Virus record (IMG/VR): IMGVR_UViG_3300009285_006550
Location: 1-20,585 of that record
Length of the DNA: 20,585 nt
Reading direction: 5' to 3' (one strand)
Source of the DNA: a virus
Numbering within the stretch: position 1 is the first letter of the stretch; every line of letters begins with the position of its first letter. Positions 1 to 18,367 of this stretch are shown piece after piece. A program made the translations under genes and the position numbers. Under the pieces are notes generated by a model. It searched no databases. It had not been told where the DNA came from and worked only from the letters and a program-made list of their open reading frames with translations.

Positions 1-201
1 GCTGGCTTCGACGCCGGCGGCAGCCGCCGCGGCTGTGTCCGCCGTGACCTCAAGGTCCGCATCCAGCGCGGCGGTCGCTTCAACACCCGCCGCTGCTGCC
101 GAGGCCGTCTCCGCCGTTGCTTCCAGGTCGGCTTCGAGGGAGGCCGAGGCCTCGACGCCTGCGGCGGCGGCGGCGGCGGTGGTCGCCGTGATCTCCAGAT
201 C
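1..201 (-). repeat. Tandem 69-bp (23-residue) in-frame repeats
   Basis: Two complete units (201-133 and 132-64) and most of a third (63-1) lie in frame in the LamG protein. Each begins Asp-Leu-Glu, followed by a Thr/Ala run, then AAAGVEA and a short Ser/Ala-Leu-Glu/Asp-Ala tail. The units differ at several residues and synonymous sites, so the array is not a recent exact duplication. It continues past the window edge, so the copy number is unknown. Confidence 0.85.
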
Positions 202-996
202 GCCCCCCGCCGCCGTGAACCACCAGGTGCTGCGCGTCCCCGGCGTCCAGATCATCGCGTAGGGCTGCTCGTACATGCCCCGGATGTACTCGGCGGGGAG
301 GGCGTAGTTGTACAACGCCACCTTAGCGACCGACCCTGCGAACCATGCGCTGTTGTCGGAGCCGATGGAGTTGCGGTCTATGCTGGCCCCGAATGTTAAT
401 GACGCTGCCACTGAGACTTCTACACCGTCAACGAAGGCCGTGTATGACCCTGCTGTTGTCGGATCGGAGCCTTTATACGTGACGCACACATGACGCCATG
501 TGTCCTTGTAGAACGCGACGGGCGTGGCTCGATTCTCGTGAAACCTACCCCAGCTTGTGCTTGTCGATCCCCAGATCAAACCGCTGTACGAGGGGTGTCC
601 GTTGAAGCCGAAGCCGATTGTCCATTGTCTGCCTGCTGTCGTGCAGCGTAATAACACAATAGACGAGTAGCCCGCTGTCTCCTTCGAGTACACCCACGCC
701 TCCACGGTGTGCGGTGCAGTCAGGCTGATGGGCTGCCACGTCGTGCCGATGTCCACATAGTCGTTCTCCCCGTCAAAGTCCAGCGCCCACCCATCGCGTC
801 CCGCTACCCAATCCGTCGCCGGGTCCATTAGGGTCAGCGTGCCGTCATTGCGCTGCCCGCTGATGTCCTGCCAATACCCGCCATGCTCCGTGGCCCCGGC
901 GATCCAGCACCCCACGCACCCCTGCCCCCACGGGTGCTGCAGGTCCACGAGGCTGCCCGGACCCGGCTGCCAGATTTTCGCCCGTTCGATGGGCAT
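1..996 (-). CDS. LamG/concanavalin-like virion protein, C-terminal end beyond window
   Basis: An open frame of 332 codons starts at ATG 996 and has no stop before the left edge, so the C-terminus is missing. Residues about 25-245 read as a laminin-G/concanavalin A-like jelly roll: a cysteine/tryptophan start (GCVGCWIAG), DISGQRNDGTL, the central ALDFDGENDYVDIG strand, TVEAWVYSKE, then WRHVCVTYKG, AFVDGVEV and VAKVALYNYALPAEYI. This strand order is typical of LamG_3 domains, which bind glycans. From residue 266 the protein becomes Ala-rich tandem repeats. Its ATG follows the upstream stop by one base (TAACATG), so it is in the same operon. As the last gene in a set of small tail-fibre-like genes, a role in host-surface binding as a tail fibre or spike is the likeliest reading. 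That role is inferred from domain and position. The fold call is strong. Confidence 0.85.
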   Translation of the reverse strand, partial: MPIERAKIWQPGPGSLVDLQHPWGQGCVGCWIAGATEHGGYWQDISGQRNDGTLTLMDPATDWVAGRDGWALDFDGENDYVDIGTTWQPISLTAPHTVEAWVYSKETAGYSSIVLLRCTTAGRQWTIGFGFNGHPSYSGLIWGSTSTSWGRFHENRATPVAFYKDTWRHVCVTYKGSDPTTAGSYTAFVDGVEVSVAASLTFGASIDRNSIGSDNSAWFAGSVAKVALYNYALPAEYIRGMYEQPYAMIWTPGTRSTWWFTAAGGDLEITATTAAAAAAGVEASASLEADLEATAETASAAAAGVEATAALDADLEVTADTAAAAAAGVEAS

Positions 997-2182: not shown

Positions 2183-2647
2183 TTAAGGGCTCTCGTACAG
2201 CAGGTAGATCGTCACGCCGATGGCCGCCCCCGTGTAGCCCTCCGGCACGCCAAACGCCCACTGCGCCTCGTTGTCCACGCCATGATCAAAGGACAGGTCA
2301 TCGTGGATCGTGTTGACGTCTTCCTCGTTCTGCTCAAGCGTCGCCCCACCGGCCGCCGGCAGGTGCGCCGCCCGTGGCGACAGCCAGACCGTCGCCAACC
2401 CAGAAGTAGCTCCCCCACCCCCGCCCGTCGTCGCGCTCAGCCCCGCCAGGGCCTCGGCCAGCTCCTCCTCGGTCACGTAGTCCGTAGCCGCCGCGGGGGC
2501 TGCCGCCGCGGCCGCCAGAGCGTCCAGCATCGCCTTGTCGGCCGGACTCATGTAGCCCGCCTGCGTGACTGTCGCCACGGGCAGGCCCAGGTGGTCGTTA
2601 TCTCGGTGCGCCCTCTCCGTCAGCGCGCTATCCATCCTGCCCACCAT
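2183..2647 (-). CDS. Tail-fibre-like small protein (154 aa)
   Basis: The reading frame begins at ATG 2647, overlapping the acyltransferase gene by 20 bases. A second ATG at 2635 is also possible, and no well-spaced ribosome-binding site decides between them. Residues 24-42 (ATVTQAGYMSPADKAMLDA) match a phrase common in phage tail fibres, where a short beta strand leads into SAADKAKLD-type helices, often just before a receptor-binding or trimerisation region. An Ala/Gly-rich linker follows at about 43-85, then a small beta-rich domain containing HLPAAGGATLEQNEEDVN and ending in GAAIGVTIYLLYESP. The product is probably a tail-fibre tip or fibre-associated subunit. The motif is visible, while the assignment to a fibre is family knowledge plus context. 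Confidence 0.7.
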   Translation of the reverse strand: MVGRMDSALTERAHRDNDHLGLPVATVTQAGYMSPADKAMLDALAAAAAAPAAATDYVTEEELAEALAGLSATTGGGGGATSGLATVWLSPRAAHLPAAGGATLEQNEEDVNTIHDDLSFDHGVDNEAQWAFGVPEGYTGAAIGVTIYLLYESP

Positions 2648-3332
2648 GCTCCAAAACCCGCTTGTTCATCCACTCAGCGTACTGCTCGAGGCCCGACGCC
2701 TTACACATTTTGCAGGCCTGCTCGTCGCACAGGGGGCCCCAGTGCTCAAGGGCCGTTCCGGGCCAGTGTTTGCCCCGCGTGCCGTAGGGGCGCGCCGGTC
2801 GTCCACGCACCATAGATCCGGGGGCCACGTCGTGCATGACCAGTGAACCCATGCCCACGAAGGCACCCTCGCCGATGGTTACGCCACCCATGATCTGCGC
2901 CCCGGCCCCGATGATGGCATGGTCCTCGATGACGACCCCCTGGGGCACAAACTCCACCTCCAGCGACGGGTACTTGTCGTTGCTCAGGAAGACCATCGGC
3001 GCGATGAAGACGTGTTGGCCGATCTTCGCCGGGTGGTGGATCTGACTGGCGGCCCCGATGTGGGTGTCATCGCCGATGACGACGCCGGGCCCGATCTCCA
3101 CACGGCACCCAATCACGCAGTTCTTCCCGATCACCACATCCACGCCCGCCGGGCGGTCCAGCCCGATCTTCACCCAATGCCAAATGCGAGTCCCCTCGCC
3201 GATCTGCACCTCTGGGGAGATGACACAGTACTCCCCCACGTGCCCGCAGCACGGCCGATGCCCACCGCACATAGGACACGGGTCCGCGTTGATCGCCAGA
3301 CCGCACTGTTCACACGTCAGAATGGCATTCAT
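2628..3332 (-). CDS. Left-handed beta-helix acyltransferase with terminal Cys clusters
   Basis: The 234-residue protein carries a hexapeptide-repeat domain at about 37-175: VIGKNCVIGCRVEIGPGVVIGDDTHIG and later VVIEDHAIIGAGAQIMGGVTIGEGAFVG, ending in the usual SMVRGRPAR turn. The pattern resembles sugar N/O-acetyltransferases of the WbpD/VioB-like group, which transfer an acetyl group from acetyl-CoA to an amino sugar nucleotide. His99/His100 are candidate catalytic residues. An N-terminal Cys cluster (C7, C10, C19, C22, C28, C29) resembles a zinc ribbon, and a C-terminal cluster (C202, C207, C210) is also present. Neither is usual in WbpD-type enzymes. The start overlaps the radical SAM gene by 23 bases, with a weak GAGG site four bases upstream. 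It is the fourth enzyme of a coupled cassette. The fold is certain, while the substrate is unknown. Confidence 0.88.
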   Translation of the reverse strand: MNAILTCEQCGLAINADPCPMCGGHRPCCGHVGEYCVISPEVQIGEGTRIWHWVKIGLDRPAGVDVVIGKNCVIGCRVEIGPGVVIGDDTHIGAASQIHHPAKIGQHVFIAPMVFLSNDKYPSLEVEFVPQGVVIEDHAIIGAGAQIMGGVTIGEGAFVGMGSLVMHDVAPGSMVRGRPARPYGTRGKHWPGTALEHWGPLCDEQACKMCKASGLEQYAEWMNKRVLEHGGQDG

Positions 3333-4095
3333 GGTGCCTCGCAGGGTCCTGCCCAGGCGGATCGCAGGCTGTACATAGCAACGTATCGCATGCCGCCGGC
3401 TCGTCGTGCAACACCTTCCAACCCTCGCTCACTTTGCCCATCGCCCCCACCATGAAGTAGGCATGGCCCAGACAGCGAAAGAACGTACTGTCGGGCATCA
3501 ACACGCCGAAGTTGTAGCCTGCCTCACAGGAGTCGAACCGCCCTGGTTTCACCGGAACCTTGTCCCGGTAGAGGAATGTGTGGTCAAACGTCAAGGGCCG
3601 ATACTCACATCCGAGGGCTTCGGTTCTCTCTTTGGCGATCTCGCGGGCGTCCTCTGGGTCGCGCCATAAGACAACCTGACAACAGGCGACCTGCGCGTGC
3701 GGGAGGGCATCCCGGAAAAATGCCAAGCGCTCCCAATAGGACTTAGCCTCGGGATGATCGGGGTGGAACTGCAAGCCGCAGTTGAGCGCCTGTATCTGGC
3801 CGGCAAGCGCTGGCAACCACCAGTCCTCGATGGGGACGTGCAGGTTCGTGTCCAGGCAGACTGTCGCCTCTGTAGCCAACAGCACGTCAGCCAGGCCCCG
3901 ATAGAGCGTCGGTTCGCCGCCCGTCACCGCTATCTGCTGCAGATTATGAGGGCACGAGAAGAATATCTGCTGCCAAGCCTCCGGCGTGAGTTCCTTGCCG
4001 TGGGTGGCGACCGGCATCGCCCGACTGGCGCAGTAGGCGCAGATCAGGTTGCAGCGAAACGTGGGATACCAGACTACTGCCAGATCACGGCCCAT
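3310..4095 (-). CDS. Radical SAM enzyme
   Basis: I chose the ATG at 4095 because it forms a TAATG overlap with the upstream stop and has GGAGAGG five bases before it. An in-frame start at 4137 would add 14 residues inside the upstream gene. The 261-residue protein has the radical SAM cluster CX3CX2C (C15, C19, C22, in CNLICAYC) that ligates a 4Fe-4S cluster, and the SAM-contact motif TGGEP at 58-62. A long Cys-bearing C-terminus (C190, C208, C236, C241, C244, C257) resembles a SPASM/Twitch-like region that could hold an auxiliary iron-sulphur cluster. The family generates a 5'-deoxyadenosyl radical. The reaction here cannot be told from sequence. Genomic context with a glycosyltransferase, methyltransferase and acyltransferase suggests modification of a sugar or other small molecule. 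Confidence 0.9.
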   Translation of the reverse strand: MGRDLAVVWYPTFRCNLICAYCASRAMPVATHGKELTPEAWQQIFFSCPHNLQQIAVTGGEPTLYRGLADVLLATEATVCLDTNLHVPIEDWWLPALAGQIQALNCGLQFHPDHPEAKSYWERLAFFRDALPHAQVACCQVVLWRDPEDAREIAKERTEALGCEYRPLTFDHTFLYRDKVPVKPGRFDSCEAGYNFGVLMPDSTFFRCLGHAYFMVGAMGKVSEGWKVLHDEPAACDTLLCTACDPPGQDPARHHECHSDV

Positions 4096-5276
4096 TATGT
4101 CCTCTCCAGCCGGTAGATGAGCCGCTGCCCTGGACACATCTCCGAAACCTCAATGGCCGCCAACACAAAGCCATGCTCCTTCCCGACCGCTTGCACCCAA
4201 GCGGGGGGTAGGTGCATCGCGTTTGGGTAGGGCGGCAGGCCCGGCTTGTACGGCACTTCGCCGATCCCGAAGGGCGTCTCGATGATCGCGCTGTTGCAGG
4301 CCTCCAGTACCTTAGCGAAGACCGCCTCCGGGTCTTTGCAGTGGTGTAGAAGGTTGAGCATCAGTCCCACATCGTACCGCAGCAACTGCTCGTGAGCGTT
4401 GAGGCGCGGCAGGCTATCGCTTACAATGTCCATCCGGCAAGTCGTGATGGGCAGGTGCTCGCAGTTGCGAATGTGCTGCGCCAGGGCGACCTGCAACTCA
4501 CGCACTTCGACAGAGGTAGCGTAAATGGCGCCCCGGTGGATTGCCTCATAGCACATGCCCCCTTCGGAGGCCCCGATGTCCAGCAGCGTCTTGCCGGTTA
4601 GGTCGGCGGGCAGGATGCTCTCCAGGCGGGCGTGCTCCCATCTTTGACGGACCTTGTCCGTGGTTCCGTACTGCTTGCCGCCGAGCCAGACGGCCTGCTG
4701 GTACATCTGGGCCACGGGCAGAGGGTCCGGCTCCCGTACTGTCCCGGTTACCATCTCTCGGACCTCGCCTACCGTGGTCTCACGCATCGGGAAGTCGCAG
4801 GCGTCCACCAGCACGGTTTCGACATCGGCCCAATCGGTAAAGGATGCGATCACATCGTCGAGCTGTTTTTCGTCGGGCAACACGCCTTCCAGTTGCGCCT
4901 GCGTCGGATCGTCCTTGTGGTGGGCATAACGCACCTTGCGCCGGGCCGCCACGAGGAAGCCGGGCGCAAACAGCCAGAGAATGATGATGGTGTATTCCCC
5001 CGCACACTCCTCCACCACGCGGTTGACGTTGACGCAGGTGTCGCTGAGCAGGTAGGGTTTGTCGCCCATGAGTTTTCGGATCGTCGGCAGAAACGGTTGT
5101 TTCTGGTCCAACAGGGAGTTGATGCTGGCAAGGTCGAAGACCCCGAAGCCGCGCTCGATGGCGTCCTGCAGGATCGGCACGCCGACGAGGTGCTTCTGGC
5201 CCGCCACCATCGCGCGCATCAGCGCCGTCTTGCCGGTGCCAGCCGAACCCCTGAGGACGATGATGATCTGCTTCAT
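4095..5276 (-). CDS. P-loop NTPase/kinase-like domain fused to class I SAM methyltransferase
   Basis: The 393-residue protein has two domains. Residues 1-175 form a P-loop NTPase: strand IIIVLRG, Walker A GSAGTGKT (10-17), a later hydrophobic strand YTIIILWLFAPG (95-106) and an AARRKVRYAHHKDD segment that could be a kinase lid. Residues about 195-393 form a class I methyltransferase: motif I LLDIGASEGG (231-240), an acidic post-I strand near VEVRE (256-260), CRMDIVSD and motif IV YDVGLMLNLLHHCKDPEAVF (301-320), as in Methyltransf_11/23-type enzymes. The start overlaps the glycosyltransferase stop as ATGA, with no obvious ribosome-binding site, so translation is probably coupled. The domains could act on the same acceptor, one phosphorylating and one methylating, but the substrate is unknown. 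The fusion is in frame with no sign of a sequencing error. Confidence 0.85.
   Translation of the reverse strand: MKQIIIVLRGSAGTGKTALMRAMVAGQKHLVGVPILQDAIERGFGVFDLASINSLLDQKQPFLPTIRKLMGDKPYLLSDTCVNVNRVVEECAGEYTIIILWLFAPGFLVAARRKVRYAHHKDDPTQAQLEGVLPDEKQLDDVIASFTDWADVETVLVDACDFPMRETTVGEVREMVTGTVREPDPLPVAQMYQQAVWLGGKQYGTTDKVRQRWEHARLESILPADLTGKTLLDIGASEGGMCYEAIHRGAIYATSVEVRELQVALAQHIRNCEHLPITTCRMDIVSDSLPRLNAHEQLLRYDVGLMLNLLHHCKDPEAVFAKVLEACNSAIIETPFGIGEVPYKPGLPPYPNAMHLPPAWVQAVGKEHGFVLAAIEVSEMCPGQRLIYRLERT
4101..4107 (-). promoter_or_regulatory. Ribosome-binding site of radical SAM gene
   Basis: GGAGAGG on the minus strand lies five bases before ATG 4095, inside the last codons of the P-loop/methyltransferase gene. 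It decides for the internal ATG over the earlier in-frame start at 4137. Confidence 0.7.
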
Positions 5277-6346
5277 GGTTGCACCACAGCGCTGCAGCCC
5301 TGCGCTTGGCCATAGAGCGTCTTCAGCCGCGCCACCACCTGCGGCACGTCGTGCAGCCGCCGCACCGCCCGCCGCCCCTTCTCGCCCCAGGCCTGCCGCA
5401 GCGGCTCGTCGGGGATCAGACTTTGTAGCTTCTTCGCCAGGGTGTCATACGTCACGTAGACGAAGGGCAGGTCCGCGCCGTAGCACTCCTTCTGCGCGAC
5501 CAGTTCGTCAGCCGTGCAGCCCAACACCACGGGGATACCCATGGCCATTGCCTCAAGTGACGCCATCCCTGGACCGTACAGCATCGTGGCCACGTAGATG
5601 TCGCACTGCCGGATGTGCCACAGACTTTCCCGGCGCTGTAGCCCATGGATCAGGTGTAGATCCGGCGCCGACCTCATGCCGCGCACCGTCTCCACGATGA
5701 AGTCGCTGCCCTTGTTGGAGGCCACTGTGTACCCGTGGCCCACGACGATCCGACCGTTGGGACGCCCCAGCGCCCGCGGGTAGTTGCGCTCAATCTCGTT
5801 GACGTTGATGGGCGACGGCAGCCACCGCAGGGTCTTCCGGCCCGCCGCGCTCCCGTGGATCAGCAGGTCAGGCGTTGAGACCAGCCGCAGGTAGCCCGCG
5901 TCAACCTCGGCGCGCTCGAACTGTTCCGGGTTGTCGCGGTAGGCGCACCCGTGGTGGTGCATGACCATCCGCTTCCCTGGCTTGACCTGGTTCAACTGCT
6001 TGTAGTTGTGGTACTCGCACAGATGCAGGACGTCCGCCGCCTTGATGATCTCCTCCACGAAGGGGCCGTCTGAACCAGACCACTGATAGAACGGCCGTTC
6101 ATGGAGCCACGATTGGCTGTTGCTCAGACACCAGTAGCCCCAGCCGGGGGCATACTGCAGGAACCCGCGGGCAATCTCGTGGCCGATCTCGCACAGGTCG
6201 GTGTACGCGAGGTAGACCGCACGGGAGATGTCACCATCCCGATAGGCTCGGGGGAAAGGTGGCCGCTCCTTCGGTTCCTCAACGGGGACGGCCGCGTTGC
6301 CGCCGCCGCGCACACCGATCACCTGCACTTCGGCTGCCGCGCCCAT
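5273..6346 (-). CDS. GT-B fold glycosyltransferase (GT4-like)
   Basis: I start it at ATG 6346, which forms TGATG with the upstream stop. GGAGGGGG lies about 11 bases upstream. A TTG one codon earlier is possible but less likely. The 357-residue protein has a GT-B layout. The N-terminal half includes ADVLHLCEYHN and KRMVMHHHG strands, the domain linker is LPSPINVNEIE (177-187), and the second Rossmann half begins IVVGHGYTVASNKGSDFIVET. The C-terminal nucleotide-sugar motif is YGPGMASLEAMAMGIPVV (257-273), with Glu266 in the position of the conserved GT4 glutamate. Such enzymes move a sugar from a nucleotide donor. The acceptor (virion protein, host surface glycan or modified base) cannot be read from sequence. 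It is the first enzyme of the four-gene cassette. Confidence 0.85.
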   Translation of the reverse strand: MGAAAEVQVIGVRGGGNAAVPVEEPKERPPFPRAYRDGDISRAVYLAYTDLCEIGHEIARGFLQYAPGWGYWCLSNSQSWLHERPFYQWSGSDGPFVEEIIKAADVLHLCEYHNYKQLNQVKPGKRMVMHHHGCAYRDNPEQFERAEVDAGYLRLVSTPDLLIHGSAAGRKTLRWLPSPINVNEIERNYPRALGRPNGRIVVGHGYTVASNKGSDFIVETVRGMRSAPDLHLIHGLQRRESLWHIRQCDIYVATMLYGPGMASLEAMAMGIPVVLGCTADELVAQKECYGADLPFVYVTYDTLAKKLQSLIPDEPLRQAWGEKGRRAVRRLHDVPQVVARLKTLYGQAQGCSAVVQP

Positions 6347-6696
6347 CAATGCGTCTGCCCCCTCCGGGTCCAGGTCAGGGCCAGGGCGCCACTCAGCGGC
6401 TCAGACGGCCCGCCGCTGATCCGCTCCACGATGACCACGAAGCTGTTGGGATCGTGCTTCACCAGGTGAAACAGCGCGCCCGGGATCTCGGAGCCGTCCG
6501 AGGTCTTCGTGAACTCTGGCGGTGAGGCCATCGTCCAGTTGTTTGTCCCTTGCGTCGCCGCAGGGACTGACAGGCGCGTCAGCGTCCCATTGGCGCCATC
6601 ATAGAAGCCAGCGATGGAGACTGTCCCCGTCGCCGTCTGCGTGCCGAACATGCCGACCAGTGCCTTCATCTTCTGGGTGTTGAACAACTGCAACAT
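6346..6696 (-). CDS. Small putative virion protein (116 aa)
   Basis: Two in-frame ATGs, 6702 and 6696, are available. A perfect AAGGAG at 6705-6710 is only two bases from the first but eight from the second, so I start at 6696. The 116 residues include a beta-rich middle with GTVSIAGFYDGANGTLTRLSV and FHLVKHDPNSFVVIVERISGG, and end in Trp-Thr-Arg-Arg. No named family, membrane span or catalytic motif is seen. It lies between the large tail protein and the glycosyltransferase and shares one base with the latter. A tail or virion accessory role is guessed from position. It could instead belong functionally to the enzyme cassette. Confidence 0.68.
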   Translation of the reverse strand: MLQLFNTQKMKALVGMFGTQTATGTVSIAGFYDGANGTLTRLSVPAATQGTNNWTMASPPEFTKTSDGSEIPGALFHLVKHDPNSFVVIVERISGGPSEPLSGALALTWTRRGQTH

Positions 6697-6704
6697 GCTC
6701 ATGT

Positions 6705-6710
6705 CTCCTT
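6705..6710 (-). promoter_or_regulatory. Ribosome-binding site deciding start at 6696
   Basis: AAGGAG on the minus strand is eight bases before ATG 6696 and only two before ATG 6702, which favours the internal start of the 116-residue protein. Confidence 0.65.
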
Positions 6711-6715
6711 CGCGG

Positions 6716-9661
6716 CTACGCTCCGCGCGCAGTCCGCCGTTGGTACTCGACCGTCACTGCCTGCAGCACGAAGTACTGCACGTTCGCGCCTTCCAACTTC
6801 AGGCGCAACCGGGGGCAAGCGTAGCCCGCGGGAATGCCCATCCGCTTGTTCTGCGTCACCACCCCGAGATCCGTCCACGCCACATTCTTCCCGACCGAGA
6901 CGTACAGGTGCAGATCGTCGGCCGAGGCCTCGGGAACCGTCCACTGGCCGGAGACCCAGACGTCCAGCGGGTTCACCATCTCCCCGGGCTCCGCCACCAG
7001 CGGCGGCAGCTCGATCCGCACCTCGCCATAGTAGGCGCTGGCGGACGACCCGGCGGCGTCCCCGTAGTTGCCCGCCGGCGCGTTGTCGGGGAAGTACGAG
7101 CTGTCCAGCATGGTCACATATTGGCTGTACAAGCCGGTGCCCGTGGGCACGTGCCACTTCAGCATCGTCAGGATGTGGGAGTGCTCCGGGCCGAAGTTCC
7201 AACTCCGCAGGCCGATCCGGCCGATGCCCAGGCGCCTGATCTCCCAGGTGTCCGTCTCTGGCTGCCAGCAGGTGCAGTAGCCGCGCGCGCCATCCATGAT
7301 GTAGAAGCGCCCGTCGTGCCAGCAGACCATCGGGTACGGGATGTTGCTCGGGGTCAGCGTCGCATCCACCGGAGGCGGCATGTCCTCGTTCTCGTACGTC
7401 CACGCCGCGAACTCCCGATAGCTGACCACCTGGCGCACCGTCGAGCCGTCGAACAGTTCCCAGCCGCTGCGCCCGGCCCACATGACGCCGTGGGGGCTGG
7501 TGGCGACGTGCATGCCCACCACCCCGGCAGCGCCCGGAATGGGCGTCACTCGCCAGTCCGCCTCGCCGTACCCCGTCACCAGGAAGGCGCTGTCCTCCTT
7601 GAGCACGATGAGCTGGTCGTGCCAGGACACGAGCGCCATGATCGGCGCCGACGATCCCACCGAGATCCTGTTCTCGGTCGGCCAGTACCAGGGCGACCCC
7701 AACTCCGAGTAGAAAAGCACGTTCTCAAGGTTGGATAGCTCGATGCCGTAGTACAGGAAGCCGCCCCCGGAGCCTTCGCCCGCGCCGGTCTGCGCGTAGG
7801 TGAACTTTGTGGTGCTCGGGACCGAGGCCACGCGAAAAGCACCGTTGAAGGTGCTCGGCACCGGCAGGTGGATGATGACCCAATCGCCCACAGCCAACTC
7901 GTGGGCCACGGTCGTTGTGATGGTGACGACGTTCGCCGCGCGCACGGCGCCGGTCGGCGAGGCAGCGATCGTGCGGTTCTGCCGGTAGCTCTCGCTGGTC
8001 TCAGAGATCCCGGCCATCCAGAGCCGGTCACGGTGCTGGAGCATGATGTTGCCGCGAGGCGGCAGGGCATGGTCGAAGGCGGCAGGCTCCCCCAACTCCT
8101 CCTGCGGGGTGTTGTCAATGTACGTCGTGGTGGTGTTGTCCGGGATGGTGCAGAGCAGTTGGTAGTCGGTGCCGCGGACGCCGGGCTCCAGGGAAGCGAT
8201 GAAGGCGCGGTAGAGGCGGCGATGGTTGACGCGGGGGACGAGATCGGCGGCGATGGTGGCGAGGTCAATGTGGCACTCGCTGATGCCGCCGGCGAGGGCG
8301 GCGGCGGAGATGTGGATGCGGGCGTCGGCGGTGCTCTCAACCAGGGTGATGCTGTTGCCGCCGGTGCCGGTCGCGCGCGCTGTCAAGGTGACACGCGAAC
8401 CAACGCTGGCCCACGCTGCGCTCACAGTCGGGTGGGCTGGTGTGAAGACCGAGACGCCACTGGTCCCTTCGGTTTGACCCGTATTGATGGCCGACCTCAG
8501 GACCCGGTACGTGACCTTCGCGTCGAGCGCCGCGTCCACAGACCAGCCACAGATGACATCGTACGGCAGCACCGTGAAACCACCAGCTTGCACGATGGTC
8601 AGGTCCACAAAGCGATACACAATCCCATCTATCGTCAGCGTGTCAAGGTGGGTCGGGGGCGTCGTGCTGGTCTTCGGCTCGACGTACGCCGTCGCCGCCG
8701 CGTACTCCACATCCACGTCCAGCACCGGCCCCGGCATGCTGTCCGCCCGGTCATCGCCCACGACGCCCCTGAACGAGTATCGCCCCTGCACCAGCCTGTT
8801 CCCCGCACCGGTCGCGTCCGCCGCCCCTGTCGGAGCCGCCTGCGGCGTCTGGAACCCCACCGCCAGCATCTTCGTCCCGTCCCAATAGCTCGTCGGCATC
8901 CCGTACGTCCACACCGGATCAACGCCCGAGCACATGAACAGCACGTTCGCCATCTCGGCGAACCCACCAATGCCAGTCAGCGGTGCCCACACATCTTCCT
9001 CGGCCTCGGCCGCGGTGTCGGTGTCCCACCAGCCCAGCTTCAACACTCCCGCGCTCGCCCAGCTCGCGGCGCTGAACAGCCCATAGCCGTACGCCCACTG
9101 CGCCGGCGTCTCCGACCAGTCCACATTCGCGTAATACACGTTGCCGAGTTCGGTGAGGACGAGGAGTTGGTCGTAGTCAGCGGACACGAACGGCAGGACC
9201 AGCGTGGGGCGATCCGGCCGGCACCAGCAGGTCGTCATTGGCCCGCTGGAGTCATCCGCGCCTGTCTGGGCGAACGTGAATGTGTTAGCCGCCGGGGTGC
9301 CCGTGATCGCAAAGACCCCGTCAATCCCGAAGGCCCCGCTGCCATAGACGGTAATGATGTTGCCGGTGAGGAGGGCGTGATTGTACTCCGTGGTGCAGGT
9401 GACGACGTTGGTGGCGCGGACGGCAGAGGTGATGTCCACCTGCGTCGTCGCCGTGCCCACCTGCACGGGCATCTGCAGCCGCAGTTGGTTGCGGTGCCAG
9501 TAGGCTCGGCCGCGGCTGAACCGGCAGTTGCGGGCATCCAGCAGCAGGCCGCGCTCGACAAGCTCCTGCGGAACGAACGACTCGGGGTAGAGCCCCGACC
9601 GCTGGGGGTCCACACCCGAGAAGTTCTTGAAGACCAGTTTGTCGCGGTCTCCGTACGACAT
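6716..9661 (-). CDS. Large mosaic tail-tubular/DNA-stabilisation-like protein (981 aa)
   Basis: This is the longest gene here. The N-terminus (KNFSGVDPQRSGLYPESFVPQELV, then LLDARNCRFSRGRAYWHRN) and the repeated statements of a propeller-like body (DQLLVLTELGNVYYANVDW, RDRLWMAGISE, YSELGSPWYWPTENRISVGSSAP, DQLIVLKEDSAFLVTG, DGRFYIMDGARGYCTCWQPETDTWEIRRL) resemble tail-tubular protein B / P22 gp10-type stabilisation proteins, which close the portal and form the tail nozzle. It is longer than T7 gp12 (about 790) because of insertions: a beta module at 81-139 and again at 573-634, and a VTLTARATGTGGNSI-type phage module around 335-462. The gene follows the adaptors by three bases, as expected for that function. 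Start ATG 9661 is clear. The assignment is by architecture and position, and sequence similarity must be tested. Confidence 0.75.
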   Translation of the reverse strand: MSYGDRDKLVFKNFSGVDPQRSGLYPESFVPQELVERGLLLDARNCRFSRGRAYWHRNQLRLQMPVQVGTATTQVDITSAVRATNVVTCTTEYNHALLTGNIITVYGSGAFGIDGVFAITGTPAANTFTFAQTGADDSSGPMTTCWCRPDRPTLVLPFVSADYDQLLVLTELGNVYYANVDWSETPAQWAYGYGLFSAASWASAGVLKLGWWDTDTAAEAEEDVWAPLTGIGGFAEMANVLFMCSGVDPVWTYGMPTSYWDGTKMLAVGFQTPQAAPTGAADATGAGNRLVQGRYSFRGVVGDDRADSMPGPVLDVDVEYAAATAYVEPKTSTTPPTHLDTLTIDGIVYRFVDLTIVQAGGFTVLPYDVICGWSVDAALDAKVTYRVLRSAINTGQTEGTSGVSVFTPAHPTVSAAWASVGSRVTLTARATGTGGNSITLVESTADARIHISAAALAGGISECHIDLATIAADLVPRVNHRRLYRAFIASLEPGVRGTDYQLLCTIPDNTTTTYIDNTPQEELGEPAAFDHALPPRGNIMLQHRDRLWMAGISETSESYRQNRTIAASPTGAVRAANVVTITTTVAHELAVGDWVIIHLPVPSTFNGAFRVASVPSTTKFTYAQTGAGEGSGGGFLYYGIELSNLENVLFYSELGSPWYWPTENRISVGSSAPIMALVSWHDQLIVLKEDSAFLVTGYGEADWRVTPIPGAAGVVGMHVATSPHGVMWAGRSGWELFDGSTVRQVVSYREFAAWTYENEDMPPPVDATLTPSNIPYPMVCWHDGRFYIMDGARGYCTCWQPETDTWEIRRLGIGRIGLRSWNFGPEHSHILTMLKWHVPTGTGLYSQYVTMLDSSYFPDNAPAGNYGDAAGSSASAYYGEVRIELPPLVAEPGEMVNPLDVWVSGQWTVPEASADDLHLYVSVGKNVAWTDLGVVTQNKRMGIPAGYACPRLRLKLEGANVQYFVLQAVTVEYQRRTARGA
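7760..7945 (-). repeat. Beta module copy 2 in the large tail protein
   Basis: This encodes residues about 573-634: VRAANVVTITTTVAHELAVG, then FNGAFRVASVPSTTKFTYAQTGA. It matches the copy at 9245-9421 in the order Arg-x-x-Asn-Val-Val-Thr, Thr-Thr, His-x-Leu, Gly, Asn/Asp-Gly-x-Phe, Phe-Thr-Phe/Tyr-Ala-Gln-Thr-Gly-Ala. Divergence at many residues shows it is an old duplication or a separately acquired module. Confidence 0.8.
8276..8659 (-). other. Inserted phage tail module (VTLTARATGTGGNSI type) in the large tail protein
   Basis: This encodes residues about 335-462. It opens with THLDTLTIDGIVYRFVD, continues through VTYRVLRSAINTG and VFTPAHPTVSAAW, then SRVTLTARATGTGGNSITLVE and ends ISAAALAGGI. 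I recognise this order (a 'titidG' strand, AIN..., HP.V.A, TLTAR..G..GNSI, LAGG) as a module that recurs in unrelated phage tail and fibre proteins. It sits between sections that look like the propeller body, consistent with insertion. Confidence 0.55.
9245..9421 (-). repeat. Beta module copy 1 in the large tail protein
   Basis: This encodes residues about 81-139: VRATNVVTCTTEYNHALLTG, then IDGVFAITGTPAANTFTFAQ and TGADDSSG. It is the counterpart of the module at 7760-7945. The pattern (TT..H.L..G..I.V.G, NG.F.I, T.FTF) is one that profile searches of phage proteins sometimes label as E1 FCCH-like. Confidence 0.8.
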
Positions 9662-9664
9662 GGT

Positions 9665-10561
9665 TTACCCCGCTGCCTGGCGCCGGCCCGGGTCGCCCAC
9701 AATGCCATCGGCAGGCCGCCCGGTGCCGTACCGCGACTTCAGGACCTCCATCCGCTGCCGGAAGTGAGCCATCTGACGGTCAGCCTCCCCGCGCTCCAGA
9801 GCCTGCTCCCGGCACCTCGCGACCGCCCAATCCATCAGGAAGCCGTAAAAGACGGGCCCCAGCAGCGGGTCCTCGTCGCCAGCGATCTGCCCCTTGAACA
9901 GGTGAACCATGCGGCCGCCGGTTCCGGCCGCGGTCCCCGAGTTGATCGTCAGGGTGTCGGCCGTCGGCGCCGTCGCCATCGTCCAGGTCCCGTTCGGGGT
10001 GCCCGCGCTGCCCGTCATGCCCTCGATGGCGATGGGGTCGCTGGCGTTGTCCACGGTCGTCAGGCCGTGTGTCGGCACGGTCAGGATGGTCCCCGCCGCC
10101 ACCAGCGACGTGATCGCCCGTACCCGCATCGGCTTGCGGACATAGTAGATCTGGTAGACCAGTGAGTCGGGGTCCACACCACCCGTCATGAACACGATCT
10201 GGTCGCCGACGATGCTGTAGAACGGCTTCGTCTTCGCCGGCGTGAAGTAGATGTTGCTGAGCGTGGCTTGCAGGTTCAGGGTCTCCAGCCGCCGACAGAT
10301 GATCCCGCCGAGTGTCACATACCGCTCGCGCAGGAAGTCCGCCGGCAGGCCGTAGGAGAACACGGCTGTCGTGACCACGCCGTTGCAGATCTCCGTGAGG
10401 GGGAACATGGCGGCGTCCAGCCCCTCCTCGTTGGCCACGACCATCTGCGCCTCGTTCAGCCAGCCGTAGATTTCGCTGTCCTGCCAGCGGTCAGCGGCCG
10501 GCTCCCCAAGGCGGAACCGGCAGGTAGCCAGTAGGGTCTTGCTGATGTCTCCAGCGGCCAT
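9665..10561 (-). CDS. Head-tail adaptor-like protein C with inserted beta module (298 aa)
   Basis: The gene encodes 298 residues and starts at ATG 10561, overlapping the previous stop as TAATG. It matches the upstream 216-residue protein at the same places: DSEIYGWLNEAQM (28-40), GLPADFLRERYVTLGG (71-86), TKPFYSIVGDQIVFM (111-125), YQIYYVRKPM, DWAVARCREQALERGEA (244-260) and the ending RYGTGRPADGIVGD. This is the layout of portal-binding adaptors such as P22 gp4 and T7 gp11: helices, a small beta core, then C-terminal helices. Between the YYVRKP strand and the C-terminal helices sits an extra beta module (about 146-220) absent from the paralogue. It is likely a connector or nozzle ring subunit. 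Paralogy is visible in the sequence, while the exact ring position is unknown. Confidence 0.75.
   Translation of the reverse strand: MAAGDISKTLLATCRFRLGEPAADRWQDSEIYGWLNEAQMVVANEEGLDAAMFPLTEICNGVVTTAVFSYGLPADFLRERYVTLGGIICRRLETLNLQATLSNIYFTPAKTKPFYSIVGDQIVFMTGGVDPDSLVYQIYYVRKPMRVRAITSLVAAGTILTVPTHGLTTVDNASDPIAIEGMTGSAGTPNGTWTMATAPTADTLTINSGTAAGTGGRMVHLFKGQIAGDEDPLLGPVFYGFLMDWAVARCREQALERGEADRQMAHFRQRMEVLKSRYGTGRPADGIVGDPGRRQAAG
9902..10126 (-). repeat. Beta module inserted in adaptor C (third copy)
   Basis: This encodes residues about 146-220: RVRAITS..GTILTVPTHGLTTVD, IAIEGMTGSA, PNGTWTMATAPTADTLTI. The pattern THGL, I.I.GM.G, NGTW and T.T.T is the same as the two modules in the neighbouring 981-residue protein, with more divergence. 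It lies exactly in a loop where the 216-residue paralogue has only a short connection. Confidence 0.65.
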
Positions 10562-11211
10562 TATGAAGCCCTCCGATCACCAGCGATGCCCTCGAACGGC
10601 AGGCCGCTGGAGTGACGACTGTTGATGACTTCGCAGCGCCCGAGATACTCGCGGAAGAGCACCTCGGCCTCTTCCACCTCAGCCCGGGCCTCCCAGCACC
10701 GCATGACCGCGAAGGTCTCCAGGAGGCCGTCGTACTCCTGGGGCAACTCCGGGTCAGTGGCGGTCGTCAGGTCGGCCGGCGTCCTGAAGTAGTACAGACA
10801 ATAGTTCCCTGCCGTCTTCGTCCCCGCACTGATGTACAGGGCGTTGTCCCAGATGTAGTAAAAGGGCTTGCCCTCAGTGGGGTTGAGGTTCGGGTTTCCT
10901 ACCAGGTCGTAGAGCCGATGCACCTGCCAGCGGATCGCCTGGACCTCCGTGGCGATGCCGACATGGTAGGTCAGGGCGCGCTCGCGCAGGAAGCGCGTCG
11001 GAAGCACGTACGGATTTGCGTCGAGCGTCAGCGCCGCCGTCTCGGTGTGCATCATGGAGCCCAGGGCAGCGTCGTTGAGCTGGATGCACAGGTCGCGCTG
11101 GGCCTCGTCCAGGAGGTCGAGGATGACGTCGTCCGCGACGGCCTGGGATGATAGCGAGTTCACCCGCGCTCTCACGCGGGCGATGATCTGCAGGGTCCTG
11201 GCGTTTGCCAT
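10561..11211 (-). CDS. Head-tail adaptor-like protein B (216 aa)
   Basis: The gene encodes 216 residues and starts at ATG 11211, two bases after the previous stop. Its length is closest to T7 gp11 (about 196) among the three adaptor-like genes, so it is the best candidate for the ring that docks directly on the portal. Visible parts are an N-terminal helix pair (ARTLQIIARVRARVNSL; DDVILDLLDEAQRDLCIQL, 27-45), YVLPTRFLRERALTYH (68-83), KPFYYIWDNALYIS (115-128), YCLYYFRTP and C-terminal helices DGLLETFAVMRCWEARAEVEEAEVLFREYLGRCEV (161-195). The ending SSGLPFEGIAGDRR parallels the end of protein C. The order of these elements is shared with its neighbours, which supports tandem duplication. The adaptor call rests on fold-level resemblance plus position between capsid and tail genes. 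Confidence 0.75.
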   Translation of the reverse strand: MANARTLQIIARVRARVNSLSSQAVADDVILDLLDEAQRDLCIQLNDAALGSMMHTETAALTLDANPYVLPTRFLRERALTYHVGIATEVQAIRWQVHRLYDLVGNPNLNPTEGKPFYYIWDNALYISAGTKTAGNYCLYYFRTPADLTTATDPELPQEYDGLLETFAVMRCWEARAEVEEAEVLFREYLGRCEVINSRHSSGLPFEGIAGDRRAS

Positions 11212-11213
11212 CG

Positions 11214-12512
11214 TTATGTCACCCTTCCGTCGCGGCGAACGGCTGTCACGCCGCGGGAGTTCAAGTAGTTCTGACGGTCGCGCTCCATGGCCTCAAGGTA
11301 GATGGCCAGGCAGGCCTGCGCGCGCTCGATGTCGCCGACGTGCCGGAAGGCCTGGTACATCGCGTAATCCACGAGCAGGGCGCTCAGATGGCAGGGCAGC
11401 GTCGGCACGTCGGAGTCGCCCACCATGGCCAGCGGCGTCTGCAGTGCCCAGACCTCGATCTCGTCATCGGCAACGGCAGGGGTGGGGTACAGGGCCAGCT
11501 CCTGGCCGTACCAGGCGTAATAGCGCGGGGTGCTGGCGGTGGTGTCCAGTTCGGCCCGTGCGATCTCCTCGGCGGTCGTCAGGGCGGTCAGCTCGGCCCC
11601 GGCGTACGTGACGTACTGGATGCGGAGGATGCCAGGGTCGAGGGTGTACCGGCGCTGGGAGATCACGCTGTCGAGTTGGATGCGCAGTTGCGTCCAGAGG
11701 AGATCGGCGTCGAGGCGGTAGATGGCCTGCTGCACCCACTCCTGGACGTTCTCCTTGAAGACCGTGTGGAGCGACTCCTTGCTGAGGAGCCATTCGGCCA
11801 TCGCGGTCTGCACCTGCCCGCAGAGCTGGCCGAAGTTCATGCAGACGCCCGAGGTGGACGAGACGACCGCCACGACGATGACGCCGCCAGCGGGAGCCGT
11901 GACGACCCCTGTAGCGTCCACGGTAAGCGAGTAGGGGTTGGCCGCCACGTAGCGCGATGAGACCTGCACAGAGACGGTGTAGGTGCCGGCGTCGAGGGCC
12001 CACTGCGCGGGGAAGAGGCCGTTGGCGTTGGAGGTCTGCGGGGCGAGGCCGGCGACGGTGACGCGGGCGCCGGCGACGGGATCGCCGTTGTCGTCCTTGA
12101 CGAGCAGGGTGACGTTGAAGGTGCCTGTGCCGAAGGCGCCGGACTCCCAGGAGCCGAGGCCGTGGATGGCGGAGAGTTCCACGTCCACATCCTCAGGGAT
12201 GGTGTTCAGCAGCTCGGCCCGGGCCGCGGTCCAGTCGGCCTCCGTCAGGACCGTCATGGCCGCGTCGTCGCAGTCGGCGTCCGTGGCCTTGATGGCGATG
12301 CTGTTGGCGTTCATGTCGGCGGCGGAGAGGGTGACCAGGACGCCGAAGTCCGCGATGAGCGCAACCGCGAAGGCACTCTCGGGAGGGGCGAGCGCCCCGC
12401 CGTCTTTGGAGATGGTGACGGTGGGGCTGGTCGGGGCGAGTAGGGTGACGTGATCGAGGGCGTCGTACATCGGGATGGGGATGGCCTGGGCGACGCCCTT
12501 CTGGAGTGCCAT
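11214..12512 (-). CDS. Adaptor-like protein A with N-terminal beta/Ig-like extension (432 aa)
   Basis: The ATG at 12512 follows the upstream TAG directly, with AAAGGGG nine bases before it. The N-terminal 220 residues are not adaptor. Residues 1-95 read TVTISKDGGALAPPESA...VLVTLSAADMNANSIAIKATD, a beta sandwich pattern found in many phage baseplate and virion proteins. Residues about 131-203 (FNVTLLVKDDNGDPVAGARVTVAGL, TSNANGLFPAQWALDAGTYTVSVQ) look like a carboxypeptidase-regulatory/Ig-like domain. Residues about 225-432 carry the adaptor layout: VQEWVQQAIYRLDADLLW (256-273), YTLDPGILRIQYVTYAG (289-305), TPRYYAWYGQELALYP (328-343), EVWALQTP, then helices HLSALLVDYAMYQAFRHVGDIERAQACLAIYLEAMERDRQNYLN. 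It is the first and largest of three tandem adaptor-like genes. The extension could face outward as a decoration or collar. Confidence 0.72.
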   Translation of the reverse strand: MALQKGVAQAIPIPMYDALDHVTLLAPTSPTVTISKDGGALAPPESAFAVALIADFGVLVTLSAADMNANSIAIKATDADCDDAAMTVLTEADWTAARAELLNTIPEDVDVELSAIHGLGSWESGAFGTGTFNVTLLVKDDNGDPVAGARVTVAGLAPQTSNANGLFPAQWALDAGTYTVSVQVSSRYVAANPYSLTVDATGVVTAPAGGVIVVAVVSSTSGVCMNFGQLCGQVQTAMAEWLLSKESLHTVFKENVQEWVQQAIYRLDADLLWTQLRIQLDSVISQRRYTLDPGILRIQYVTYAGAELTALTTAEEIARAELDTTASTPRYYAWYGQELALYPTPAVADDEIEVWALQTPLAMVGDSDVPTLPCHLSALLVDYAMYQAFRHVGDIERAQACLAIYLEAMERDRQNYLNSRGVTAVRRDGRVT

Positions 12513-13212: not shown

Positions 13213-14289
13213 CTACGACAGGAACGGGCTCAGGTCAGGCGACTTCGCCACCCAATCATCGCTCGTCACTTCCATGTCCGGGTCAATCCCGAAGATGCGC
13301 CCCTGGTTGCGCCGGTTCGTGCAGCCCACAGCGCCCCAGAAGTACAGCTTGTTGATGTAGTTCTCGTAGTCCAGCGACGAGCGCCAGCCCTCAGCGTCCC
13401 AGGACATGTTGCGCCCCGGCTGGTACATGAGCTGCAGGTTCTTCGGCTGCAGGAAGAACATCTGGTGTCCCTTGCAGCCGTCCCGGTCGCCGCCGTCCTC
13501 ATCGAAGGCGTCGCACAGCGCGGCCTCCATGTACAGGTCGTCCGTCACCGGCACGCTCAGGACGTGGATGGCATCGAAGCCCCAATTCACCACCTGGTTC
13601 GTGCGGACAGCGCTGACCTGATCGTTCGCCTCGAGCTGCTCGGCGAGCCGGTCATAGACCGCCGTGCTCGTCACGATGTAATCGGGCTTGCTGCCGGAGA
13701 TGTTCTGAATCGCCCGGATCATGCGCTTCACGTTGTCCAGCGAGGGAGCGATTGGGGCCGTCACCGTGTCGTAGTCGGGCTCGGTGATGATCGAGCGCCA
13801 CTGCGGGACATCCGCGATGCCGATGTTCGCGTAGGGCGTCGAGTCATTGACGGCGTCCGCAATGCTCCACATCGCCTTGCCCGTCTTGGGCGTCCACAGC
13901 GCGGGCGCCAGGATCTTCTCCTTCATCGTGGCCATGGCACTCCGAACGTACATGTCGAAGTAGCTGGCGATCTTGCGGGGGTCGTTCTGGTTGGCCTCGA
14001 TGTCGGCCTTCCACAGAGACACCGGCACGTAGGTCTTCATCCAGGACAGCTTCGCCTTGGTGGCGATCTCGCCACTCTCCGTCAGGTCCAGTTGGTCCTT
14101 CGTCTCGTACCACGCGCCGGTCAGGCGCGCATACTCGATGTCGAAGACGATGTCCACGCCACCGATTGCGCGCTGGTACTTCTTCATGTACTTCAGGGTC
14201 GGGGTGTCGCGGTACACGATGTCCTGGACTGCCTTCTCCAGCCAGAACTCCTGCGTCAGGGCGTCGAAAGTGCTGTATGGGACGGCCAT
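13213..14289 (-). CDS. Major capsid protein (HK97-fold candidate)
   Basis: The gene encodes 358 residues from ATG 14289. It follows the scaffold gene by 41 bases and precedes a strong hairpin, the usual place of a major capsid gene. The sequence begins AVPYSTFDALTQEFWLEKAVQDIVYRDTPTLKYM and has an early beta region (GVDIVFDIEYARLTGAWYETKDQLDL), a likely spine/E-loop stretch (MKTYVPVSLWKADIEAN), an A-domain-like segment (PDYIVTSTAVYDRLAEQLEA; NWGFDAIHVLSVP) and a C-terminal strand set (LYFWGAVGCTNRRNQGRIFGID). These elements resemble capsid proteins of short-tailed and related phages in which a replaceable beta-tongue and a VTST/ADP strand are seen. No protease gene lies nearby, so capsid maturation probably relies on the separate scaffold. 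Family-level placement needs a profile search. Confidence 0.85.
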   Translation of the reverse strand: MAVPYSTFDALTQEFWLEKAVQDIVYRDTPTLKYMKKYQRAIGGVDIVFDIEYARLTGAWYETKDQLDLTESGEIATKAKLSWMKTYVPVSLWKADIEANQNDPRKIASYFDMYVRSAMATMKEKILAPALWTPKTGKAMWSIADAVNDSTPYANIGIADVPQWRSIITEPDYDTVTAPIAPSLDNVKRMIRAIQNISGSKPDYIVTSTAVYDRLAEQLEANDQVSAVRTNQVVNWGFDAIHVLSVPVTDDLYMEAALCDAFDEDGGDRDGCKGHQMFFLQPKNLQLMYQPGRNMSWDAEGWRSSLDYENYINKLYFWGAVGCTNRRNQGRIFGIDPDMEVTSDDWVAKSPDLSPFLS

Positions 14290-16117: not shown

Positions 16118-18367
16118 CTACACCAGCCCCATCTGCGGGACTGCTCCCGCCACCGGCGCCTGCGCCCCGCCCAGATCCATCCCCAGCGCCTGCAACACCT
16201 CCAGAATCGCCTGCTGCACCTCCGCCGGCAGACTCTCCAGCCACGCCTCCTGCTCCGGCGTCAGCGGCTGCCCGCCCAGCAACTGCTCAATCACCGCCAG
16301 CAGCAACGCCTGGTCCTGCTCATCGAGCATCGCCATGATCGGCGCCAGCAGCGACTGTACGATCGTGTCGAGGTCCTGTTGGGGCGGTGGGCCAGCGCCC
16401 TCCGGCGCCTGCTCCGGTGCCCCGCCCGGCCCGGCCCCGCGGGCCATCGTCTGCTGAGCTATCTGAAGCAACAACATGAGTGCCTGTGGGTTGTTGGCCG
16501 CATCAGGATCATTCAGCAGTGGTAGCAACTGCTGTGTCAATGCCTCGGTCTCACCGGCCCCCTGCCCCGCTGCCCCGCCCATCATCGCCGCCTGCTGCGC
16601 CATCTGCATCTGCTGCTCCTGCGCCGCCATCTGACCCTGCGCCACCTCCGCCTGCCGCGCCGCCATCCGCTGCACGATCTCCTGCCGGTGCGGGAACTTC
16701 AACGCCTCCAAAAACGCCTCCCGGTCAATTCCAGGCCCGTCCGGGAACATGGTCTGCGCGGCCTTGAAGGCCACCTCCGCCTGCGCCATGGCGTTCAGCG
16801 GCAGGTTGCCGCCGGGCTCCACGACGACCCGGTACGGGATCGGCACCTGCACGCTCTCCAACCCGGCCGGCCCCATCATCCCACCCATCATGTCAGCCTC
16901 AGGCCCCGCCAACTCGCTCATCGGGGCTTCCGGCGACAGCCGCTCCTGCTTCAGCATGTCCGGCGTCACCGTCTGGCGCACGAACTTCGTCCCGTTGTGA
17001 TAGGCGAATGAGCGCTCCTCGTCGTACTTCTCCTGCATCATGTCGAGCACGATCTGGCCGAGGCGCTCAAGCTGCAGGGCGTTGTCCCGAGCGGTCTCGC
17101 GAACCCGCGTCATGGCGCTTTCCTGCAGACTCTGGATGCCGATGCCGGACTGCACCGAGCCGGGCCGCAGCCCCCGCATGACGTCCTGCACGCCCGAGAC
17201 CGTCTTCACATCCTCGTACATCTCACGCCCATAGGCGAACATCCAGGAGGGCAAGGGCGGCCCGTCCATGATCTTCGCGAAGCCATCTGCCCCCCGAACC
17301 TGGACGACCAGCCCCACGCGGCCATCATTCTGAGTGATCTGTTGGGCCGCCCCTTGGTCATTCGTCACTACCGGCATCCGACCAAGGATCCGCAGGTGCT
17401 GCTGGATCATCAAGTGCCACTTGTTGATCTTCGTCTGGAGCCCGATGATCTGCGACGTAATCGGCATGCCCCAGAACGACTCGCCGCGCTCACACATCGG
17501 CAAGCACACCACCGGGAACTGCTCGCCCGGGGTGGGGTTGTCGCCATCCCAGAGCAACTGCTGCCCCGAGAAGATCGTCAGCCGCCGGCCCCCCTCGTGA
17601 TAGACCTCCCAGATCCGGTAGGTCTGGCGATTTCCTGGGGGAACGCTCACCAGGCGCCCCACCACCCAGGCGATCGCCCGCGAAAGCAACGACTGAGGCC
17701 GCTGGGTGTCATCCTCGACGAGCTGCCCCTTCTTCTCATCGAACTTCGTCCCGCCGTCAGACCCGTCATAGATGCGCGCCGCCCGCTCCGGCGCCATGTC
17801 GCTCGCCAGCGCCAGCCACTCGCATTCCTCCAACGACCGCGCCGCCGGGTCCGGGTACACGCTGTACGGGTCCAGCCACGACACGTCAACATCGCCCTTG
17901 TGGCTGCGCTTGATCCGCCCGCGGCCGTCTACATCCACCTGCTCGGGCCCGATGTTCGGGTTCCACCAGACCTTCAGGAACCCCGTGCCCCGAAGCGCCT
18001 GGTCCACCAGCGACATGCCGTACTCGCGCGAGACCCGACGCATGTACCAGATGGCCTGCAGCGCGTCCGTCAGTTGGTCCTCAAGGCCCTCCGGCAGGCC
18101 CTCGTGCAGCGCCTTGACATACCACAACGGCACCGAGTCCTTGATGACGGGCACAATGGACGAGACCGTGGAGTAGACGAGGTTGACCGGCGCCCAATCC
18201 AACGAGGCGTCCTTGCTCAGGTCCACCCCCTCGTCCTGGACCCCCTGGTAGAAGTCGCCGTACTTGTCCCACTTGGTATGCAGGTCGCGGACGGTCTGCG
18301 TGGCGTCCTCGACCCAGCCCTGCAGCTTGGAGATCAGATCCCGATCCCGCTCAGAAGAGGCCGGCAT
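16118..18367 (-). CDS. Portal protein (P22-like size and layout)
   Basis: I start at ATG 18367 (MPASSERDRDLISKLQ), which overlaps the terminase end by 17 bases with GGAAGG and GGUGGG upstream. An in-frame start at 18406 would add 13 Arg/Trp-rich residues. The 749-residue product is near the length of the P22 portal (725). The N-terminal half has the wing/stem order seen in portals: helix with tryptophans (DKYGDFYQG), DWAPVNLVYSTVSSIVPVIKDSVP, WWNPNIGPEQVDVDG, DPYSVYPDPAARSLEECEWLA, then GEQFPVVCLPMCERGESFWGMPITSQIIGLQ and KINKWHLMIQQHLRILGRMPVV, and SVQSGIGIQSLQESAMTRVRETARDNALQLERLGQIVLDM as clip and stem helices. The last 200 residues are Gln/Ala/Met-rich and helical, comparable to the P22 barrel. 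Twelve copies form the DNA channel at one capsid vertex. Confidence 0.88.
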   Translation of the reverse strand: MPASSERDRDLISKLQGWVEDATQTVRDLHTKWDKYGDFYQGVQDEGVDLSKDASLDWAPVNLVYSTVSSIVPVIKDSVPLWYVKALHEGLPEGLEDQLTDALQAIWYMRRVSREYGMSLVDQALRGTGFLKVWWNPNIGPEQVDVDGRGRIKRSHKGDVDVSWLDPYSVYPDPAARSLEECEWLALASDMAPERAARIYDGSDGGTKFDEKKGQLVEDDTQRPQSLLSRAIAWVVGRLVSVPPGNRQTYRIWEVYHEGGRRLTIFSGQQLLWDGDNPTPGEQFPVVCLPMCERGESFWGMPITSQIIGLQTKINKWHLMIQQHLRILGRMPVVTNDQGAAQQITQNDGRVGLVVQVRGADGFAKIMDGPPLPSWMFAYGREMYEDVKTVSGVQDVMRGLRPGSVQSGIGIQSLQESAMTRVRETARDNALQLERLGQIVLDMMQEKYDEERSFAYHNGTKFVRQTVTPDMLKQERLSPEAPMSELAGPEADMMGGMMGPAGLESVQVPIPYRVVVEPGGNLPLNAMAQAEVAFKAAQTMFPDGPGIDREAFLEALKFPHRQEIVQRMAARQAEVAQGQMAAQEQQMQMAQQAAMMGGAAGQGAGETEALTQQLLPLLNDPDAANNPQALMLLLQIAQQTMARGAGPGGAPEQAPEGAGPPPQQDLDTIVQSLLAPIMAMLDEQDQALLLAVIEQLLGGQPLTPEQEAWLESLPAEVQQAILEVLQALGMDLGGAQAPVAGAVPQMGLV

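Follow-up and report, generated by a model that had tools for sequence, protein, structure and literature searches.

A coupled cassette of a glycosyltransferase, a radical SAM enzyme and two further enzymes among the virion genes of a phage contig

Organization of the contig

The window, by which we mean the whole stretch of viral DNA that was analysed, is 20,585 bases long, and its main genes are all on the minus strand. Along that strand they are ordered terminase, portal, capsid, three adaptors, a 981-residue virion protein, g118 and four enzyme genes; 3′ of the enzymes are gp154, small genes, and a gene for a lectin-domain protein that is cut by the contig end. The features discussed here are the following.

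16118..18406, minus strand: portal protein, P22-like (PF16510, 1.9e-27)
13213..14289, minus strand: major capsid protein (phrog_9953, 1e-21)
9665..12512, minus strand: three SU10-type adaptor proteins (PF24175; 2e-17, 3.8e-17 and 6.9e-9)
6716..9661, minus strand: 981-residue virion structural protein, upstream of the cassette (phrog_511 internal virion protein, 2.2e-12; phrog_5838, 2.3e-7)
6346..6702, minus strand: g118, small family-less protein coupled to the cassette
5273..6346, minus strand: GT4-type glycosyltransferase, 357 residues, its start overlapping the g118 stop
4095..5276, minus strand: P-loop NTPase (perhaps kinase-like) fused to a class I methyltransferase, 393 residues, with Walker A and motif I
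3310..4095, minus strand: short radical SAM enzyme, 261 residues, with CX3CX2C, GGEP and Twitch/SPASM-like C-terminal cysteines
2628..3332, minus strand: left-handed beta-helix (hexapeptide) acyltransferase, 234 residues, with a Cys-rich N-terminus (PF00132, 3e-27)
2183..2647, minus strand: gp154, possible tail-fibre-like protein (weak PHROG matches only)
1..996, minus strand: lectin-like (Laminin_G_3/ConA) adhesin candidate (PF13385, 6.9e-16), running off the contig end

The window is the head-tail region of a phage whose early genes lie outside the contig, and because the portal is P22-like and the adaptors are of the SU10 type, the phage is most likely short-tailed. The first of the three adaptors (11214-12512) carries at its N-terminus an additional part that gives Ig-like or carboxypeptidase-regulatory-like matches. 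At the other end of the window (1-260) the lectin-domain protein passes into Ala/Thr-rich repeats (about AAAAAGVEA...) at the contig edge, possibly a stalk. The sole close relative of the phage recovered by pattern scans is a contig of 7.6 kb (L002), whose head proteins are 70–84% identical and which stops at the capsid gene, short of the cassette.

The four cassette ORFs are intact and overlap one another between virion genes, and re-reading of the junctions in the sequence agrees with the coordinates, strand and four overlaps given in an earlier note on this DNA. The g118 and glycosyltransferase genes are joined by TGATG (6348-6344), the glycosyltransferase and fusion genes by ATGA (5276-5273), the fusion and radical SAM genes by TAATG (4097-4093), and the radical SAM and acyltransferase genes by a 23-base overlap (3332-3310). 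A further overlap of 20 bases, absent from that note, joins the acyltransferase gene to gp154 if the latter starts at 2647, so that the gaps along the run from g118 to gp154 are −1, −4, −1, −23 and −20. The placement in a late operon and the translational coupling proposed in the note hold. The flanking genes, described there as a tail protein and tail-fibre-like genes, fit that description in part. Upstream, g118 has no PHROG or Pfam match, and the 981-residue protein matches internal virion and virion structural families and not a named tail protein; downstream, a fibre role for gp154 is suggested by weak matches only, and the protein with a ConA/laminin-G lectin domain lies further on.

The cassette genes have GC3 values of 0.75–0.85 in the claimed frames (overall GC is 0.61–0.66), which supports these frames being truly coding. 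In the first 10 kb, sites resembling promoters or terminators are no more numerous than in shuffled sequence. Codon fit is 0.315 for the glycosyltransferase gene, close to the main structural genes (0.27–0.43), 0.227 for the acyltransferase, 0.198 for the fusion and 0.035 for the radical SAM gene; this gradation, with the radical SAM gene lowest, speaks against the recent acquisition of the four genes in one event, or may reflect lower expression. By hydropathy none of the four products is a clear membrane protein: the glycosyltransferase, radical SAM enzyme and acyltransferase have no membrane-like segment, and the fusion protein has one borderline window. No sugar-nucleotide synthesis gene is recognised in the window, where the epimerase family was searched for.

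The four enzymes

The enzyme types are as named in the earlier note, with three of the proteins matching their Pfam families above cut-off. The glycosyltransferase matches Glycos_transf_1 (PF00534) at 2.8e-7, with 30.7 bits against a cut-off of 26.4. Its EX7E motif reads YGPGMASLE, such that the second Glu is kept and the first is replaced by Tyr, and the pair of glutamates is incomplete. A relative in phage contig L029, with 24% identity over 235 residues (E 2e-9, pairwise), also lacks the first Glu. We refer to the enzyme as GT4-type only, its activity being predicted from the family.

The naming of the fusion protein is upheld by its motifs, a textbook Walker A (GSAGTGKT) in the N-terminal half and an intact motif I (LDIGASEGG) in the methyltransferase half, but not by profiles, which for both halves fall below cut-off. 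The N-terminal half has no profile above cut-off and when searched alone gives AAA_33 at 0.012 over nearly the whole domain; the C-terminal half gives Methyltransf_25 at 5.4e-5. An AlphaFold model made without an alignment has a pLDDT of 35.8.

The radical SAM protein belongs to its superfamily (PF04055, 1.2e-8; 35.7 bits against a cut-off of 29.5). When it is aligned with 13 other sequences, most of which come from viral contigs, C15, C19, C22 and the GGEP motif at 59–62 are invariant, and C190 and C236 are conserved in at least 90% of the sequences. The window protein additionally has C206, C241 and C244, and its C-terminal cysteines (190, 206, 236, 241 and 244) resemble the auxiliary-cluster region of Twitch/SPASM enzymes, with a spacing that we take to be like that of BtrN; the modelled C-terminus has a pLDDT below 50. 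Foldseek places the model closest to SPASM/Twitch radical SAM enzymes, a hint from a weak model (57.1). A profile built from the protein and the 13 others finds SuiB, SkfB, PqqE, BlsE and MoaA, and lower down DesII, SpeY and BtrN, a range such that sequence cannot separate sugar from peptide substrates. A match to PADLOC pVip (9.1e-7) covers residues 8–101 only, and an assignment as a viperin was rejected at 27.7 bits against the NF038283 cut-off of 180.

The acyltransferase matches Hexapep above cut-off, and its nearest solved proteins are the sugar N-acetyltransferases 7s43/7s3u (3.6e-17 to 7s43), 3mqg (7.7e-16), the WxcM-like 4mzu and QdtC (3fs8). These matches and its hexapeptide repeats place it with the NDP-aminosugar N-acetyltransferases; against the NeuD_NnaD subfamily it scores 91.7 bits, below the cut-off of 160.8. 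The NDP-3-amino-sugar N-acetyltransferases WlbB, QdtC and WxcM-like share its hexapeptide fold, and the NDKYP segment of 7s43 is matched in the window enzyme. It differs from these proteins in its extra Cys-rich N-terminus and in having no recognised aminotransferase or dehydratase partner in the window. With no sugar-nucleotide synthesis gene recognised there, an acetyltransferase of this kind would need an amino sugar made by the host.

Searches for the same gene set

The order of four genes described in the earlier note was sought elsewhere and not found. The glycosyltransferase, fusion and radical SAM proteins have no tblastn match in 50,697 phage records. Among plasmids tblastn gives no match for the fusion and one weak match for the radical SAM enzyme, to a general radical SAM protein. 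Pattern scans of IMG/VR for the same three proteins, which reach close relatives only, found none, and no hexapeptide enzyme is present in 27 other records searched, all of which carry radical SAM genes. One genome scan and 296 genomes of one phylum, chosen from a stray match, gave no relative showing the unit. Within what was searched by tblastn, pattern scans and the 27 records, the four-gene set is therefore unique. A Nitrospiraceae contig (L004) was set aside as not this system, having an ordinary 343-residue radical SAM protein beside rubrerythrin-like genes. The opposite case, in which the cassette genes would have unrelated relatives that do not occur together, is not what is seen: in L029 about 4 kb, which includes a methyltransferase, separates the glycosyltransferase relative from a radical SAM gene, and relatives of both window enzymes are found within 5 kb of one another.

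Radical SAM and glycosyltransferase genes in other viral contigs

Scanning IMG/VR for the motif YPTxxCNxxCx[YF]C, regardless of neighbouring genes, yielded 25 loci, from which four near-duplicate contigs with the same matches and spacing were set aside to leave 21 records. A GT2 or GT4 match lies within 6 kb of the motif gene in 13 of the 21. In the eight records of at least 30 kb, 20 of 29 glycosyltransferase matches are within 6 kb of the radical SAM gene, whereas random displacement of the radical SAM position within the same records gives an expectation of 3.3, and none of 20,000 trials reached the observed number; the glycosyltransferase positions in this count were merged by hand from separate searches. 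Methyltransferase matches (Methyltransf_23 only) near the radical SAM gene number 4 against 1.4 expected, which is not significant (p about 0.1).

Family searches place clusters of this kind in the structural operons of several viral contigs, at varying joints. In L027, whose capsid is of the same family as that of the window, the segment between capsid and adaptor (2629-11033) holds glycosyltransferases, three radical SAM genes and a methyltransferase. L034 carries a radical SAM gene and several glycosyltransferase-like genes, one of them GT11, between terminase and portal; L028 has GT4, GT4, GT2 and radical SAM genes after the head genes; and L009 has GT2, methyltransferase and radical SAM genes inside the head operon. 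In L008, a contig with a terminase gene, both activities are predicted in a single 996-residue protein (2328-5318; GT2, 4e-39; radical SAM, 4e-9). In L014 a radical SAM gene stands alone, flanked by genes for a virion protein and a beta-helix spike.

Several other arrangements were seen. One of the L027 radical SAM proteins has a B12-binding match and another a SPASM domain. A 544-residue protein of L015 (386-2020) has a glycosyltransferase-like N-terminal half followed by a radical SAM half, of which Pfam names only the latter, and it is preceded on its strand by two GT4 genes. L006, L007, L011 and L018 each have between three and eight radical SAM genes close together, without GT2 or GT4 matches. 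L037 is not counted as support, since its cluster is QueE-like and no GT2 or GT4 match lies within 11 kb.

Proposed role of the cassette

The earlier note took the enzymes to build and decorate unusual sugars or surface glycans, a reading strengthened by the recurrence of radical SAM and glycosyltransferase neighbourhoods, some with methyltransferases, in structural modules. We tentatively favour a specific form of it, which we put at slightly less than an even chance: that the cassette of this probably short-tailed phage makes a tailored sugar and transfers it to a tail or fibre protein. The cassette genes would be expressed late, together with the virion proteins. A sugar might be altered by the radical SAM enzyme and the P-loop/methyltransferase protein (e.g. 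oxidised, epimerised or O-methylated) and N- or O-acetylated by the hexapeptide enzyme, and the GT4 enzyme would pass it, within the cytoplasm, to a virion protein that most likely belongs to the neighbouring tail or fibre set. That the four enzymes form one pathway, the order of its steps, the sugar as substrate and the virion protein as acceptor are what we infer; because the cassette encodes no clear membrane protein, and from its position, we lean towards an acceptor in the cytoplasm, a virion protein for example. In favour of virion glycosylation are the coupled overlaps inside a virion operon, the enzyme families, the lack of clear membrane segments, the association of glycosyltransferase and radical SAM genes, and the lectin-domain protein downstream; against it are the failure to recognise a sugar-nucleotide synthesis gene in the window, the lack of a hexapeptide enzyme in the other radical SAM clusters examined, the weak assignment of both fusion halves and the missing first Glu of the glycosyltransferase. 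Position near tail genes also counts against a virion target, being a trait of proposed host-surface cassettes as well.

The main rival, which we regard as somewhat unlikely, is that the cassette alters a host surface glycan late in infection, through receptor masking, exclusion of competitor phages or a change of serotype. Enzymes resembling sugar N-acetyltransferases usually act on sugars of O-antigens or S-layers, which suits such a role. The cassette nevertheless has no membrane flippase, polymerase or integral-membrane transferase, and synthesis alongside the virion proteins would come late for protecting the cell. A host-surface role is the interpretation given, in passages on pelagimyophages, to glycosyltransferases near tail-fibre genes (PMC7029224). 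It is improbable that there is no single pathway and that the genes are separate morons, a few of them possibly inactive, gathered where the late operon tolerates insertions. The uneven codon fit of the four genes would be expected in that case, as would the presence of the four genes together in no other contig examined, whereas the tight overlaps throughout the cassette would not, nor would glycosyltransferase and radical SAM genes that associate far above chance in other contigs and can be fused.

The two remaining readings change the substrate. We think it very unlikely that the radical SAM enzyme modifies a peptide, epimerising or cross-linking a tail protein to which the other enzymes add groups: its best fold and profile matches do include the peptide-modifying SuiB, SkfB and EpeE, but the same lists hold SpeY, BtrN, DesII and BlsE, which are enzymes of sugars, nucleosides and aminocyclitols, no gene for a precursor peptide was noticed, and the confidence of the model is low. 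Least probable of all is DNA hypermodification, in which a P-loop base kinase, the radical SAM enzyme and the transferase would place methyl or acyl groups on phage DNA. Known pathways of base hypermodification do use P-loop kinases, radical SAM enzymes and glycosyltransferases, and the early region of the genome is outside the contig. However, Pfam searches gave no base-modification family for the four proteins at E values up to 1, or for the P-loop half at up to 5, and sugar pathways are where GT4 enzymes and acyltransferases with a left-handed beta-helix typically occur.

More broadly, we speculate, with considerable doubt, that pairs of a short radical SAM enzyme and a glycosyltransferase, sometimes fused, are a widespread undescribed phage system, integrated into virion operons, that puts sugars made by radical chemistry on virion proteins, the window cassette being a version with an added acetyltransferase and P-loop/methyltransferase fusion. 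The strong association of radical SAM and glycosyltransferase genes within records, and their fusion, give a concrete, testable idea of what some phage radical SAM enzymes do. If virion proteins carry such sugars, this would bear on adsorption, virion stability and recognition.

Comparison with known phage systems

Radical SAM genes that lack an explanation have been known from phages since at least 2010, when they were described in an interchangeable module of Campylobacter phages CP220 and CPt10 (PMC2853527), and fifteen radical SAM enzymes are encoded by one huge virus (PMC9723712). The CP220 radical SAM protein gp163 is 32% identical to that of the L028 cluster, and a sugar epimerase and a polysaccharide deacetylase are encoded about 6–7 kb away from it. 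Unlike the window gene, it is outside a tail operon, and the 17 kb examined around it has no annotated glycosyltransferase. Seroconverting gtr operons include a membrane flippase and an integral-membrane transferase, neither of which is clear from hydropathy in the window cassette. We know of no radical SAM enzyme or acyltransferase in the system that glycosylates mycobacteriophage virions. That system has in common with the window a phage-encoded glycosyltransferase, which glycosylates the virion with modification of capsid and tail-tube proteins, and differs from it in phages and hosts (Freeman 2023, as cited in PMC12363180).

A phage system pairing a radical SAM enzyme with a glycosyltransferase was not found described in the open-licence literature searched. 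Among the closest parallels are the pelagimyophages, where glycosyltransferase genes and radical SAM cassettes accompany tail-fibre genes in a hypervariable host-recognition region. Those are large T4-like phages of SAR11 with regions of tens of kb and a proposed function, and the passages that treat these regions describe no coupled four-gene unit with a hexapeptide acyltransferase (PMC7029224). The window cassette is a variant of a partly known and unexplained kind, as glycosyltransferase and radical SAM genes near phage tail fibres have already been reported.
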